Under the pieces are notes generated by a model, which was given only the letters and a program-made list of their open reading frames with translations, was not told the origin of the DNA and did not search any database. A DNA stretch of 6,797 bases from Chloroflexota bacterium (lineage in GTDB: Bacteria; Chloroflexota; Anaerolineae; Anaerolineales; Villigracilaceae): positions 1,263 through 8,059 of the forward strand of contig JAMDBC010000013.1 in NCBI GenBank assembly GCA_023484185.1, in the 5' to 3' direction. Positions within the stretch are counted from its first letter, which is position 1, and every line of letters begins with the position of its first letter. The position numbers and the translations under genes were made by a program. Shown piece by piece: positions 1,055-3,950 of the stretch.

Positions 1055-2651
1055 AATCAGACCAGTTGCCGATGTACATCTTTGCAATGGACTCGCCTTC
1101 GAAGGCAATGATGTGGGTGCAGATGCGGTCGAGGAACCAGCGGTCATGGCTGACGACGATGGCGGCGCCTGCAAATTCCTCCAATGATTCTTCCAATGCT
1201 CGAAGTGTATTTACATCCAAATCATTGGTTGGTTCATCCAATAGCAAAACATTCGCGCCTTCGGTTAATGTTTTGGCGAGATGCACACGGTTGCGTTCAC
1301 CGCCAGAGAGCACGCCGACTTTCTTTTGCTGGTCTGCGCCCATGAAGTTGAAGGAGGAACAATAGCCGCGTGAGTTGACTTTGCGCTTGCCGAGTTCCAA
1401 AAAGTCTGCGCCTTGCGAGATTTCTTCGTAGACGGTTTTCTCTGAATCAAGTGTGCGTGATTGATCGGCATAAGCCAACTTCACAGTCTCGCCGATCTTG
1501 ATCGTGCCGCTGTCGGGAGTCTCTTTGCCAGTGATCATCTTCAACAACGTGGTCTTGCCTGCGCCGTTCGGACCAATTATCCCGACGATACTGCCTGGGG
1601 GAACAGAAGCAGAAAAGGAGTCGAGAATGAGGCGGTCGTCATAGGATTTTGTCACTTTATCAAATTCAAAAACCAAGTCACCGAGGCGCGGACCAGGCGG
1701 GATGTAAATTTCCAATTCTTCGCGGCGTTGCTCGGCTTCCTGTCCCAACAGTTGTTCATAGGAAGTGACGCGCGCCTTGCCTTTGGATTGACGCGCCTTG
1801 GGCGACATGCGAATCCATTCGAGTTCGCGCGCGAGAGTCTTTTGGCGCTGGCTTTCGCTTTTCTCCTCCTGCGCGAGGCGGGTCTCTTTTTGTTCGAGCC
1901 ACGCGGAGTAGTTGCCTTTATACGGAATTCCAAAACCGCGGTCGAGTTCGAGAATCCAGCCCGCGACGTTATCGAGAAAGTAACGGTCATGCGTGACGGC
2001 GATAACGGTGCCTTTGTATTCGCGCAGGTGATGCTCGAGCCACGCCACGGATTCGGCGTCGAGGTGGTTGGTGGGTTCGTCGAGCAGGAGCACATCGGGT
2101 TCCGTGAGCAGCAAGCGGGTGAGAGCGACGCGGCGCCTTTCCCCTCCCGAACAGACCTTGACGGGCGTATCCCCGGGCGGACAGCGCAGCGCGTCCATCG
2201 CCACTTCCAGATGACTGTCGAGGTTCCAGGCGTCGTGCTTTTCGAGTTGTTCCTGCAATTTGGACTGCTCGGCGACGAGGGCGTCGAAGTCGGCATCGGC
2301 CTGGGCGAACTTGGCATTGACCTCATCGAAGCGCGCCAGCATATCCACGATGGGCTTGACCGCTTCTTTCACGACCTCGATCACGGTTTTCGTTTCATCG
2401 AGCTTTGGCTCCTGCTCGAGCAGACCGACAGTGTAGCCTTTGGATTGCGAGATTTCGCCGATGTAGTCTTTATCGACGCCTGCCATGATGCGTAGTAACG
2501 TGGACTTGCCCGCGCCGTTAAGTCCGAGCACGCCAATCTTGGCGCCGTAGTAAAAGCCGAGCGAAATGTCGCGCAGAATTTGTTTGTTGCTGGAGGGGAC
2601 GAGTCGTCCCACTTTGTTCATGGAGTAGATTACAAGGGATTCATTTGCCAT
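990..2651 (-). CDS. ettA: Energy-dependent translational throttle protein EttA, C-terminus frameshifted
   Basis: This is an ABC-F protein with two ATPase domains and no membrane segments. EttA binds the ribosomal E site and gates entry into the elongation cycle according to ADP/ATP level. Visible motifs are Walker A1 GLNGAGKST (residues 43-51), signature CSGGERRR (~167-174), Walker B1 LLLDEPTNHLD (~189-199), the arm-like insertion (~95-140), the tRNA-interaction linker (~242-322, with EWIRMSPKARQSKGKAR), Walker A2 GPNGAGKTT (360-368), signature LSGGERNR (~448-455), Walker B2 LLLDEPTNDLD (~469-479) and the switch His in SHDRWFLD. The linker separates EttA from Uup and other ABC-F types. After GNWSD (~532) the frame shifts, giving 21 unrelated residues; the native tail follows in another frame down to 967. 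Both ATPase domains are intact, so partial function is possible. The ATG has no Shine-Dalgarno, but TAAAAT lies 9 bases upstream. A divergent hicBA operon sits on the other side of that promoter. Confidence 0.93.
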   Translation of the reverse strand: MANESLVIYSMNKVGRLVPSSNKQILRDISLGFYYGAKIGVLGLNGAGKSTLLRIMAGVDKDYIGEISQSKGYTVGLLEQEPKLDETKTVIEVVKEAVKPIVDMLARFDEVNAKFAQADADFDALVAEQSKLQEQLEKHDAWNLDSHLEVAMDALRCPPGDTPVKVCSGGERRRVALTRLLLTEPDVLLLDEPTNHLDAESVAWLEHHLREYKGTVIAVTHDRYFLDNVAGWILELDRGFGIPYKGNYSAWLEQKETRLAQEEKSESQRQKTLARELEWIRMSPKARQSKGKARVTSYEQLLGQEAEQRREELEIYIPPGPRLGDLVFEFDKVTKSYDDRLILDSFSASVPPGSIVGIIGPNGAGKTTLLKMITGKETPDSGTIKIGETVKLAYADQSRTLDSEKTVYEEISQGADFLELGKRKVNSRGYCSSFNFMGADQQKKVGVLSGGERNRVHLAKTLTEGANVLLLDEPTNDLDVNTLRALEESLEEFAGAAIVVSHDRWFLDRICTHIIAFEGESIAKMYIGNWSDLFHSMRRTWKRSLGRILLRIE

Positions 2652-2660
2652 AGTGAGGGA

Positions 2661-2666
2661 ATTTTA
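2661..2666 (-). promoter_or_regulatory. -10 element of ettA, predicting a near-leaderless mRNA
   Basis: On the - strand TAAAAT stands exactly 9 bases before the ettA ATG, and no Shine-Dalgarno is present in the gap. With usual spacing, transcription would start two to three bases before the ATG. No good -35 hexamer is seen. The same hexamer and spacing recur at the two other ettA leader copies and at the DUF559 gene, which supports function. Confidence 0.55.
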
Positions 2667-2689
2667 TCAGAGAGTGGAGAATAGGACTG

Positions 2690-2708
2690 TGCTATACTCT
2701 GAACAGAG
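2690..2708 (+). promoter_or_regulatory. Extended -10 promoter of hicBA with overlapping palindrome
   Basis: TGCTATACT (2690-2698) is an extended -10 (TGn plus TATACT) and needs no strong -35; none is seen. The palindrome CTCTG-AA-CAGAG (2697-2708) overlaps the end of the hexamer and the expected start site, where a repressor site would be expected for an autoregulated toxin-antitoxin operon. The HicB here is short and has no obvious DNA-binding domain, so the operator role is inference. Confidence 0.5.
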
Positions 2709-2724
2709 AAAACAGGAGAAATTC

Positions 2725-2973
2725 ATGAGTCAAATTTACAAGTTACCTCTTGTTCTGGAGCCGCAACCCGAAGGCGGATACGTTGTTACCTGTCCACTTT
2801 TACCTGAATTGATCACCGAAGGTGAAACCGTGCAGGATGCATTGCAAAATGCAAACGATGCACTTGCGGCGATTGTGGAAGCATTGAAAGATTTAAAGCG
2901 CCCCTTACCCCCTGCCTTGCAAGCCACAAAGGAAAACACCCCACTTTGGGTTGAAACCGTGTTGGCTGTATGA
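2725..2973 (+). CDS. hicB: HicB-family antitoxin
   Basis: The 82-residue protein matches the short HicB fold (partial RNase H-like): an N-terminal strand region (YKLPLVLEPQPEGGYVVTCP), the LPELITEGETVQDAL segment and an alpha helix ANDALAAIVEALKDL, followed by the basic-proline turn RPLPP. HicB neutralises the HicA mRNA interferase by direct binding. The start at 2725 is chosen because AGGAGA (2714-2719) stands five bases upstream; the frame is open to 2653, but that would run through the promoter. It overlaps hicA by four bases (ATGA at 2970-2973), so the pair is translationally coupled. The order is antitoxin first, the reverse of the classic hicAB order. No C-terminal helix-turn-helix or ribbon-helix-helix extension is visible, so how the operon is autoregulated is unclear. 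Confidence 0.88.
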   Translation: MSQIYKLPLVLEPQPEGGYVVTCPLLPELITEGETVQDALQNANDALAAIVEALKDLKRPLPPALQATKENTPLWVETVLAV

Positions 2974-3185
2974 AATACCGTGAAGCATCGAAGAAACTCA
3001 AGGCGCTCGGTTGTGAAGAATTGCCGCGCCGTGGAGCAGGATCACACCGTGTTTGGCATAATCCAAGGAACGGAAAGATTGCTCCGTTACCTGATTGGGG
3101 TGCAAAGGATTTGAAACTTGGCACGTTGAGGGCGGTCATTCGTCAGTTGGAGTTGGATTGGCAAGAGTTCACAGACGCAAAATAG
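2970..3185 (+). CDS. hicA: HicA-family mRNA interferase toxin
   Basis: The 71-residue protein has the HicA (YcfA) double-stranded RNA-binding-like fold: a lysine-rich first helix (YREASKKLKALG), the signature GAGSHRVWHNP carrying the catalytic histidine (H26), the strand KIAPLPDW and the C-terminal pattern LKLGTLRAVIRQLELDWQEF. HicA cleaves mRNAs independently of translation and halts growth when HicB is lost. The key His and the Gly-Ser before it are intact, so the toxin is probably active. Its ATG overlaps the hicB stop codon; there is no separate Shine-Dalgarno, which fits coupling to hicB. A strong terminator follows seven bases after the stop. The operon is inserted between two direct copies of the ettA 5' end. 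Confidence 0.9.
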   Translation: MKYREASKKLKALGCEELPRRGAGSHRVWHNPRNGKIAPLPDWGAKDLKLGTLRAVIRQLELDWQEFTDAK

Positions 3186-3192
3186 ATTTAAG

Positions 3193-3451: not shown

Positions 3452-3495
3452 CCAGTTGTTTATCTACGAAGTTGTTGAAACCGTAATCCATGAAG

Positions 3496-3550
3496 AACTC
3501 CAAGAATTTCACATCGGCCTTGTGGGGAAATTCTCGGAGTTGTTGTTTTT
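3496..3550 (+). terminator. Orphan intrinsic terminator
   Basis: AACTCCAAGAATTTC (3496-3510) pairs with GAAATTCTCGGAGTT (3527-3541) with a single mismatch, followed by GTTGTTTTTT. It has the form of a + strand terminator and shares the AACTCC/GGAGTT ends with the hicBA terminator. No + strand gene lies before it; the nearest sequence is the leader of the ettA fragment. It may be left over from a lost gene. Confidence 0.65.
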
Positions 3551-3606
3551 TAACGTCCGGCTCTGCTCATGGAATATTTGATTTGTGAGTATCGGAGGCG
3601 TGGAAT

Positions 3607-3864
3607 TTAGCTTTGCCCCTTTTTCCAGTTTCCGCTCCTGGGGATAAGGGTATTGATCGGCTTGGACTTGGCAAACGGGACTGCGATGGTGTTCTCGTCA
3701 GCGTATAGTTCTACGTAATGGCAATTCAAACACAGGTAAAAAAGGACGGGGAAGCTGTCAGCATCCGGGTCAATGTTGAGTGAAAAATTGAGATGCCGAT
3801 TGGATGCCTGATTACTGCAATACACATCGGTCGAGCCGCATTTGGGACAATGTCCGTCTTTCAT
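3607..3864 (-). CDS. Small zinc-ribbon protein
   Basis: The 85-residue protein has two Cys pairs, CPKC (C6, C9) and CLNC (C45, C48), the pattern of a zinc ribbon, and no membrane segment. I do not recognise a named family; the C-terminal half (YADENTIAVPFAKSKP) carries no known motif. The start is placed at 3864 because AAGGAG (- strand, 3871-3876) stands six bases before this ATG. The frame also has an ATG at 3882, but using it would place the ribosome site inside the gene. The upstream DNA is a 16-codon remnant of the ettA start (3884-3931) with its TAAAAT element, so the gene may now be transcribed from a captured ettA promoter. Zinc binding is likely, the function is unknown; nucleic-acid or protein binding is common for such ribbons. 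Confidence 0.7.
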   Translation of the reverse strand: MKDGHCPKCGSTDVYCSNQASNRHLNFSLNIDPDADSFPVLFYLCLNCHYVELYADENTIAVPFAKSKPINTLIPRSGNWKKGQS

Positions 3865-3883
3865 TGGCTGCTCCTTGTTCATG

Positions 3884-3931
3884 ACGCCCGATTTTGTTCA
3901 TGAAGTAAATTACGAGAGATTCATTTGTCAT
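3884..3931 (-). pseudogene. ettA: Third copy of the ettA start (16 codons)
   Basis: From ATG 3929-3931 the - strand reads MTNESLVIYFMNKIGR, matching MANESLVIYSMNKVGR of EttA at 13 of 16 residues. The match ends abruptly at 3884, two bases before the first in-frame ATG of the zinc-ribbon gene at 3882. The leader (TAAAAT, nine bases, ATG) is kept. Translation from this ATG would continue out of frame through the first part of the zinc-ribbon gene. It is too short to be a gene product and is best read as a rearrangement scar. Confidence 0.85.
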
Positions 3932-3940
3932 AGTAGAGTG

Positions 3941-3946
3941 ATTTTA
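3941..3946 (-). promoter_or_regulatory. -10 element of the third ettA leader, candidate promoter of the zinc-ribbon gene
   Basis: GGTAAAAT on the - strand, nine bases (CACTCTACT), then ATG. It is the only promoter-like element seen directly upstream of the zinc-ribbon gene, whose start is 65 bases downstream of the remnant ATG. Confidence 0.45.
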
Positions 3947-3950
3947 CCTT

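Follow-up and report, generated by a model that had tools for sequence, protein, structure and literature searches.

Integron gene-cassette arrays are built from compact units whose repeats run in one orientation, and they often carry toxin-antitoxin genes. Integrative and conjugative elements (ICEs) of the SXT/R391 type integrate in the 5' end of prfC, where element and chromosome are nearly identical, and encode a tyrosine recombinase, Int, that the accessible text of PMC2791158 gives as their defining feature. For restriction-modification units, insertion accompanied by a long and variable target duplication has been proposed (Nobusato et al. 2000, as cited in the accessible text of PMC3031569). 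How defence and toxin-antitoxin genes settle at fixed places without an integrase is an open question. Here we describe a 6,797-nt stretch of the Chloroflexota bacterium assembly GCA_023484185.1 (contig JAMDBC010000013.1, positions 1,263 to 8,059; Anaerolineales, Villigracilaceae), which we refer to as the window, in which ettA, a core gene encoding an ABC-F protein, is preceded by truncated copies of an ettA start with small cargo genes between them. Our favoured explanation, to which we give about an even chance, is that the ettA start serves as a recurrent landing place for small toxin-antitoxin or defence units in one Anaerolineae family, by way of homologous recombination.

As far as the accessible descriptions go, this locus resembles several known systems. 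Insertion at the 5' end of a gene is also the outcome for SXT/R391 ICEs at prfC, and as in the proposed restriction-modification insertions, cargo of toxin-antitoxin type lies between long and variable direct repeats of host DNA. With integrase-less core-gene hotspots the ettA loci have in common fast gene turnover, a frequent lack of mobility genes, over-representation of defence and a recombination signal in the core gene, and in the core defence hotspots of Pseudomonas and E. coli, too, defence genes lie at fixed chromosomal places (PMC10250203, PMC10121019). The compact gene units and single repeat orientation are those of integron arrays.

The ettA start and two further copies in the window

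The live ettA, which we treat as the anchor gene, is a 553-residue open reading frame (ORF) on the minus strand (990..2651) with two ABC_tran stretches and an ABC_tran_Xtn match. Its leader (CTGATAAAAT, with the ATG at 2651) and first 65 codons make up copy 1 (2457..2681, minus strand), which was found by a repeat search and by an nhmmer leader profile (2681-2444). Two further ettA 5' fragments lie beside the live start on the same strand, each recovered by repeat search, leader profile and alignment. Copy 2 (3239..3463) comprises the leader and 66 codons, carries an IAQSAP loop allele and is followed by a terminator-like hairpin and then hicA; copy 3 (3884..3958) comprises the leader and 16 codons (3884-3931). 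Copy 2 (3239-3455) is 84.9% identical to the live ettA start over 218 aligned columns, its 66 codons being in frame, and copy 3 (3885-3958) is 86.5% identical to copy 2 over 74 columns and 82.5% identical to copy 1 over 63 columns, this last alignment scoring 65, where 200 shuffles gave 23 at most. All the promoter that each copy keeps is a short promoter-like element, TAAAAT, about 12-17 nt 5' of the ATG; because similarity ends about 20-30 nt before the ATG, the copies share no -35 region.

Between copies 1 and 2 lies the first cargo unit, a hicB-like antitoxin gene (HicB_lk_antitox, PF15919, E 1e-6; 2725..2973, plus strand) and a hicA toxin gene (HicA_toxin, PF07927, E 1.2e-12; 2970..3185, plus strand). 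An intrinsic-terminator-like hairpin with a T tract (CTCCGAGATCGAAGTCTCGGAG, 3195..3226), to which related hairpins exist elsewhere, separates hicA from copy 2. The second unit, between copies 2 and 3, is a zinc-ribbon gene (Zn_ribbon_13, PF09855 above cut-off; 3607..3882, minus strand) that starts immediately 3' of copy 3 and has no visible promoter of its own; the old ettA promoter of copy 3 may drive its transcription.

A sequence-only reading of the window had described three ettA leader copies in one orientation with hicBA and then a zinc-ribbon gene between them, and alignment and Pfam matches confirm this arrangement. Of the fragment lengths that it gave, 16 codons is correct and 65 codons is not, copy 2 having 66 in frame; its statement that every copy keeps the promoter-like element is right for TAAAAT and extends no further upstream. 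It had also held that the copies are not recent identical duplications, a view with which we agree, since many sites vary among them and a codon-sized indel further distinguishes copy 1 from copy 2.

Recurrence of ettA fragments and the genes between them

To place these copies in a wider context, we examined other ettA loci, numbered here as loci (L) and genomes (G) and sampled at one genome per species. From 80 ettA loci taken from named records, 50 passed an identity filter for Anaerolineae-like starts; their upstream sequence was shorter than 4.9 kb in 9, of which 3 had less than 1 kb. Using a profile of live starts at E < 1e-4, we found same-strand ettA fragments within 5 kb upstream of ettA in 9 of these 50 relatives (L001, L003, L015, L019 with two, L022, L028, L037, L038 and L044). 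On the reverse strand near ettA the profile gave no match under E 0.1 in any of the 50, and up to 5 kb downstream the only match at E < 1e-4 was in L012, inside what appears to be another ABC gene; the profile also matches the second ABC domain within ettA itself.

A sequence-only model built from 42 live ettA starts matched 24 of 396 genomes sampled from the class and 93 of 152 genomes of the family. In 13 of these 93 family genomes, G407 included, an extra same-strand start copy was present upstream on the ettA contig, at distances from 111 nt (G330) to 31 kb (G503), such that a full live start stands with a truncated one upstream, as expected of a restored target. In G517 and G512 the match was itself a fragment and a full ettA was not found, and G009 and G489, each with two full ettA starts on separate contigs, were left out of the count. 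A weak second match in G519 was considered as an extra start and was not supported on reading the sequence. The same-strand fragments and variable cargo in 9 of 50 relatives and 13 of 93 family genomes support the earlier suggestion that the ettA start is a recurrent insertion or recombination point.

We then assessed the specificity of this pattern by determining with BLAST, for genes of at least 200 residues, whether the 100 nt around the start (-25 to +75) recur within the locus. In 13 of the 75 ettA loci the start recurs, always upstream and in the same orientation and never reversed or downstream, the downstream side of these loci being short. By contrast, start recurrence was seen for 5 of 442 neighbouring genes in ettA loci and, in random regions sampled as 20 arbitrarily placed stretches of 20 kb from four single-contig genomes, for 2 of 252 genes, both of the latter in an apparently duplicated gene set. 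The difference between ettA and the other genes pooled (7/694) is significant (Fisher 1.2e-9), and it persists at 10/72 (Fisher 3.4e-7) when the window, L019 and L022, which had been included because they bear fragments, are removed. The 75 oriented loci are an incomplete set that leaves out family genomes with weak single matches, and a few genomes contribute two loci.

By inspection, the fragments are associated with at least 10 distinct combinations of cargo and junction. Cargo includes VapBC-like pairs (L022, L148), AbiEi/AbiEii (L019, L146, L149), a CAP-LysM gene (L145, L148), HEPN/nucleotidyltransferase (HEPN/MNT) genes (L139), a DUF5615 gene (L142) and a glutamine synthetase gene (L141), and in L143 and L144 the interval between fragment and next start is nearly empty. 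Because VapBC stands alone in L022, CAP alone in L145 and the two in tandem in L148, the units are modular. Ten proteins scanned in the 31-kb G503 island include members of the PIN, DUF5615, nucleotidyltransferase, Schlafen-like, Vsr and cytosine methylase families, together with an AbiEi match below threshold. Across the nearest ORFs, 143 of 183 of which were scanned, families include PIN (6), AbiEii (4), AbiEi (4), HerA (DUF87; 4), C5 methylase (3), N6/N4 methylase (3), DUF559 (3), Vsr (2) and TIR (2), these being counts without a matched control region. The cargo, judged by its domain matches, thus appears to consist largely of toxin-antitoxin or defence genes, in answer to a check proposed with the sequence-only reading, namely whether such small genes recur with ettA fragments in relatives. 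Toxin-antitoxin, restriction and defence genes cluster here as they do in defence islands, a statement to which the same lack of a matched control applies, and at this fixed place beside a core gene the accessory content differs between genomes.

Fragment alleles and a second anchor gene

We compared each of 20 fragments with 75 live ettA starts. The resident start came first for 4 fragments, in two cases as a tie, and ranked worse than 20th for 9. A longer N-terminal loop allele, I(A/V)xS(A/V), is present in 1 of 82 live genes (L088; two were untypable). Among the 12 readable fragments, 5 have it (window copy 2, L143, L144, L146, where it is frameshifted, and L149), a significant difference when set against the 80 typed live genes (Fisher 9e-5). 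In other genomes the closest live starts reach 87.9% identity to window copy 2, compared with 84.9% for copy 1, and 86.8% to copy 3, compared with 82.5% for copy 1. Leader types also differ between adjacent copies.

In the ettA alignment, pairwise distances over columns 1-24 are those least correlated with the gene body (rho 0.38), windows from column 12 onward giving 0.475-0.60. On resampling, the first-24-column value lay above the next lowest window in 2.7% of draws, and with 16-column windows columns 64-80 were nearly as low (0.35 vs 0.33-0.34). Divergence over the first 24 columns is no higher than elsewhere in the gene, and the incongruence of the ettA start is of the kind expected from recombination in a flanking core gene. 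Together, fragment ranking, loop allele, start incongruence and the matches of copies 2 and 3 favour the view that foreign starts were delivered rather than the resident start copied, though not for every fragment. The non-resident alleles and the incongruence support the earlier proposal that incoming DNA brings its own ettA leader, and we infer that the imported start is the new, live one.

A second gene shows the same geometry. DUF559 genes or fragments occur in 40 of 76 oriented loci, a count that omits tblastn matches under 45% identity, and 87 of the 88 copies are oriented opposite to ettA. Full copies number 21 and internal pieces 23, while the 3' end is retained in 35 and the 5' end in 9. 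One-way arrays composed mostly of 5'-truncated copies are found in L102, L110, L111, L130, L150 and L151, among others, and in several runs the intact copy lies closest to ettA, with small, often toxin-antitoxin-like genes between copies. As at ettA, the fragments mostly retain the side that faces away from the intact copy; they are cut at many different residues. DUF559 clusters occur away from ettA as well. The window holds one copy of this second anchor (4391..4765, plus strand; PF04480, E 1.2e-35), and in L111 hicBA lies directly 3' of a DUF559 end, with upstream sequence nearly as in the window.

Other features of the window lie around these two anchors. A frameshifted remnant of a small toxin-like gene (4870..4943, plus strand), detected in two frames by tblastn with L112 and L131 ORFs, follows DUF559 on its 3' side. 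The stretch at 4157-4243 is a short piece of another gene's end (it reads EADHNFCHRH...), which we take to be DUF488-like; it is repeated in L087, L151, L138 and L081, and is perhaps from a third anchor gene of these islands. The island is flanked upstream by a glycosyltransferase gene (5674-6795) and downstream of ettA by a gene for a BNR/sortilin-like repeat protein (1-858), relatives of which are also near ettA in L006, L020, L027, L045 and L048.

How the arrays may form

The points at which ettA sequence gives way to cargo bear on mechanism. Of some 14 cargo junctions that we distinguished by eye, about half are near ATG+44 to +52 (codon 16) and others, likewise read by eye, lie near codons 25, 39, 48 and 66, a mixed picture as regards a single fixed crossover core; fragments of L001 and L003, which had aligned to the live gene itself, were excluded from this alignment. 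Junctions track cargo, with AbiE near codon 48 (L019, L146), VapBC near codon 16 (L022, L148) and CAP near codon 17 (L145, L148). An inverted repeat, GCGC-N3-GCGC, is exact at codons 18-21 in window copy 2, the L144 fragment and the live gene of L088, has variants in L146 and L149, and sits within the rare loop allele adjoining the codon-16 cluster. Many fragments are directly followed by a terminator-like hairpin of a type common in these genomes. The combination of TAAAAGC with a CTCCGAG hairpin just 3' of the break is nearly restricted to ettA fragments; we considered it as a shared recombination site and rejected it because terminators in these genomes commonly consist of this hairpin between similar A-rich flanks. 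Copying from mRNA was also rejected, as the AbiE unit contains its own apparent promoter region.

In the model that we favour, incoming DNA would consist of a cargo transcription unit together with its own minimal ettA leader and first ettA codons. Through homologous recombination within the conserved 5' region of ettA, the incoming leader would come to stand in front of the resident gene body, which would keep ettA intact, and the old start would be left upstream as a truncated fragment; repeated rounds would yield a tandem array in one orientation. Since the resulting block of fragment, cargo and leader has ettA homology on both sides, it could be gained by another ettA, or lost, without an integrase: once formed, it could use ordinary RecA recombination to enter the ettA of another genome, or could be deleted between repeats. 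The left junction at first formation would probably arise by illegitimate joining, often near codon 16. It is RecA use, the direction of transfer and the origin of this junction that we infer. Recombination with divergent alleles, raised by the sequence-only reading as an alternative, is taken up here as part of the model, and the likeness that it drew to elements at tRNA genes survives for the outcome alone, given junctions at several codons and no recombinase gene found beside ettA. More tentatively, and with distinctly less confidence than in the ettA model itself, we suggest that toxin-antitoxin and defence units circulate with an anchor-gene docking arm and stack one way at anchor genes in a form of integrase-free cassette capture; the arm would be the 5' end of ettA or the 3' end of DUF559 and would have an allele lineage of its own.

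Site-specific integration, on the pattern of SXT-type elements in the prfC 5' end, would involve a recombinase acting in trans or since lost; the ettA leader with the first ~16 codons would serve as attP, carried by the cassette, and codons ~7-22 of ettA as attB. The grouping of about half of the distinct junctions within a few nt of codon 16, the neighbouring dyad and the compactness of the cargo units suit this scheme, whereas the remaining junctions and the DUF559 arrays, which share the geometry and are cut at many residues, do not. Nor was an enzyme found beside ettA: in 15 fragment-bearing genomes, some with short contigs, neither PF00589 nor PF00239 was matched near ettA, the 31-kb G503 island included, so that in these genomes we saw neither an intI-type integrase by the array nor an element-encoded tyrosine recombinase near the insertion of the SXT kind. 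PF00589 matches are present in all 15, the nearest to ettA in single-contig G355 being 68 kb away, and tblastn with 20 ORFs from integrase matches returned nothing in 133 loci, nearly all of them ettA or fragment loci. We regard this scheme as unlikely, and similarly doubtful is self-insertion of the cargo unit, in which 70-230 bp at the start of the resident ettA would be duplicated and would diverge later. Geometry, cargo type and variable duplication length are compatible with such an event, and hicBA occurs both beside ettA (window) and after a DUF559 end (L111), as though cargo sets its own borders; the half of the fragments that rank their resident start highly fit as well. Other fragments, however, belong to a different allele class than the live gene, a codon-sized indel included, and leader types switch between neighbouring copies.

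Two further accounts strike us as highly improbable. Direct repeats in one orientation could come from a single tandem duplication that copied the ettA start and later decayed, and the G330 (L144) fragment, which has no cargo between it and the start 111 nt away, looks the part; we rejected this account on the differing cargo, cut points and alleles, as cargo is unrelated across genomes and window copies 2 and 3 match other genomes' live starts at least as well as copy 1. Retention of the fragments as a regulatory leader (promoter, short ORF and terminator) or as a driver of cargo would be in keeping with the hairpins into which several fragments run, with the in-frame stop right after codon 16-17 in two fragments (L142, L019a) and with the placement of the window zinc-ribbon gene, but the start codon or frame has been lost in the first copy of L141 and in L022, L081 and L138.

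Several observations weigh against homology-anchored recombination itself. Plain homologous recombination does not predict clustering of junctions, and the codon-16 cluster is the main fact that the model leaves unexplained. The resident start is in the top ten of 75 for 10 of the 20 fragments. Cargo DNA is 76-87% identical between genomes, a value close to or under that of the ettA body in the same pairs, and shared cassettes may be old and vertically inherited, for which reason we counted independent insertions by differing cargo and junction. A candidate vector is likewise missing from what was searched, with no match in viral contigs to one exact start pattern and 158 matching plasmid records, among which the 8 matches listed reach at most 64.4% identity and 4 are annotated ettA. 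On short contigs a more distant recombinase could have been overlooked.

Fragments detached from the live gene are a further difficulty. In G010, G446 and G355 an ettA fragment is located elsewhere than upstream of the live ettA; those of G355 (L152) and G446 (L081/L204) end near codon 50 in a parA-parB-dnaA neighbourhood with the live gene elsewhere, and G512 (L138) has a ~39-codon fragment in the same neighbourhood, ~0.5 kb from the contig end. These could reflect ectopic insertion of a unit with an ettA arm or the trace of a relocated ettA. In G355 and G446 the detached fragment is 15-17 kb away from a large serine recombinase, a nearness that may be incidental because this neighbourhood is conserved.

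Under the homologous recombination model the chromosome preserves a history that can be read: earlier insertions seem to have left pieces of old starts behind, all in one orientation, so that insertions can be counted, cargo ordered and fragments compared with live alleles, and the fragments suggest which part of the target acts as docking arm. If confirmed, this would provide a testable enzyme-free route to defence islands and would show where to look for new defence genes in a phylum that has received little study. Our literature searches, outside the coverage of which most subscription papers lie, returned no report of ettA or DUF559 arrays.

As far as the available accounts allow comparison, each described system also departs from these arrays. 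Unlike SXT/R391 ICEs, ettA loci have no recombinase that we found alongside, their cargo is usually one or a few small genes and their cut points vary. Core-gene hotspots are described as arising by double recombination at the flanks, whereas truncated core-gene starts lie between the cargo units here; the accessible text on the Pseudomonas and E. coli hotspots, which belong to a different phylum, makes no mention of anchor-gene fragments (PMC10250203, PMC10121019). In contrast to restriction-modification insertion, the ettA case repeats at one gene start across many genomes, often with different alleles as the repeats. SXT-like integration, the core-gene hotspot and restriction-modification insertion each match in part, and none fits in all tested features. 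Finally, integrons differ in that no integrase gene was found beside ettA and the repeats are recognisable as ettA or DUF559 coding fragments, not as attC sites; if the cassette-capture reading is true, housekeeping recombination would do in these bacteria what integrons do elsewhere.

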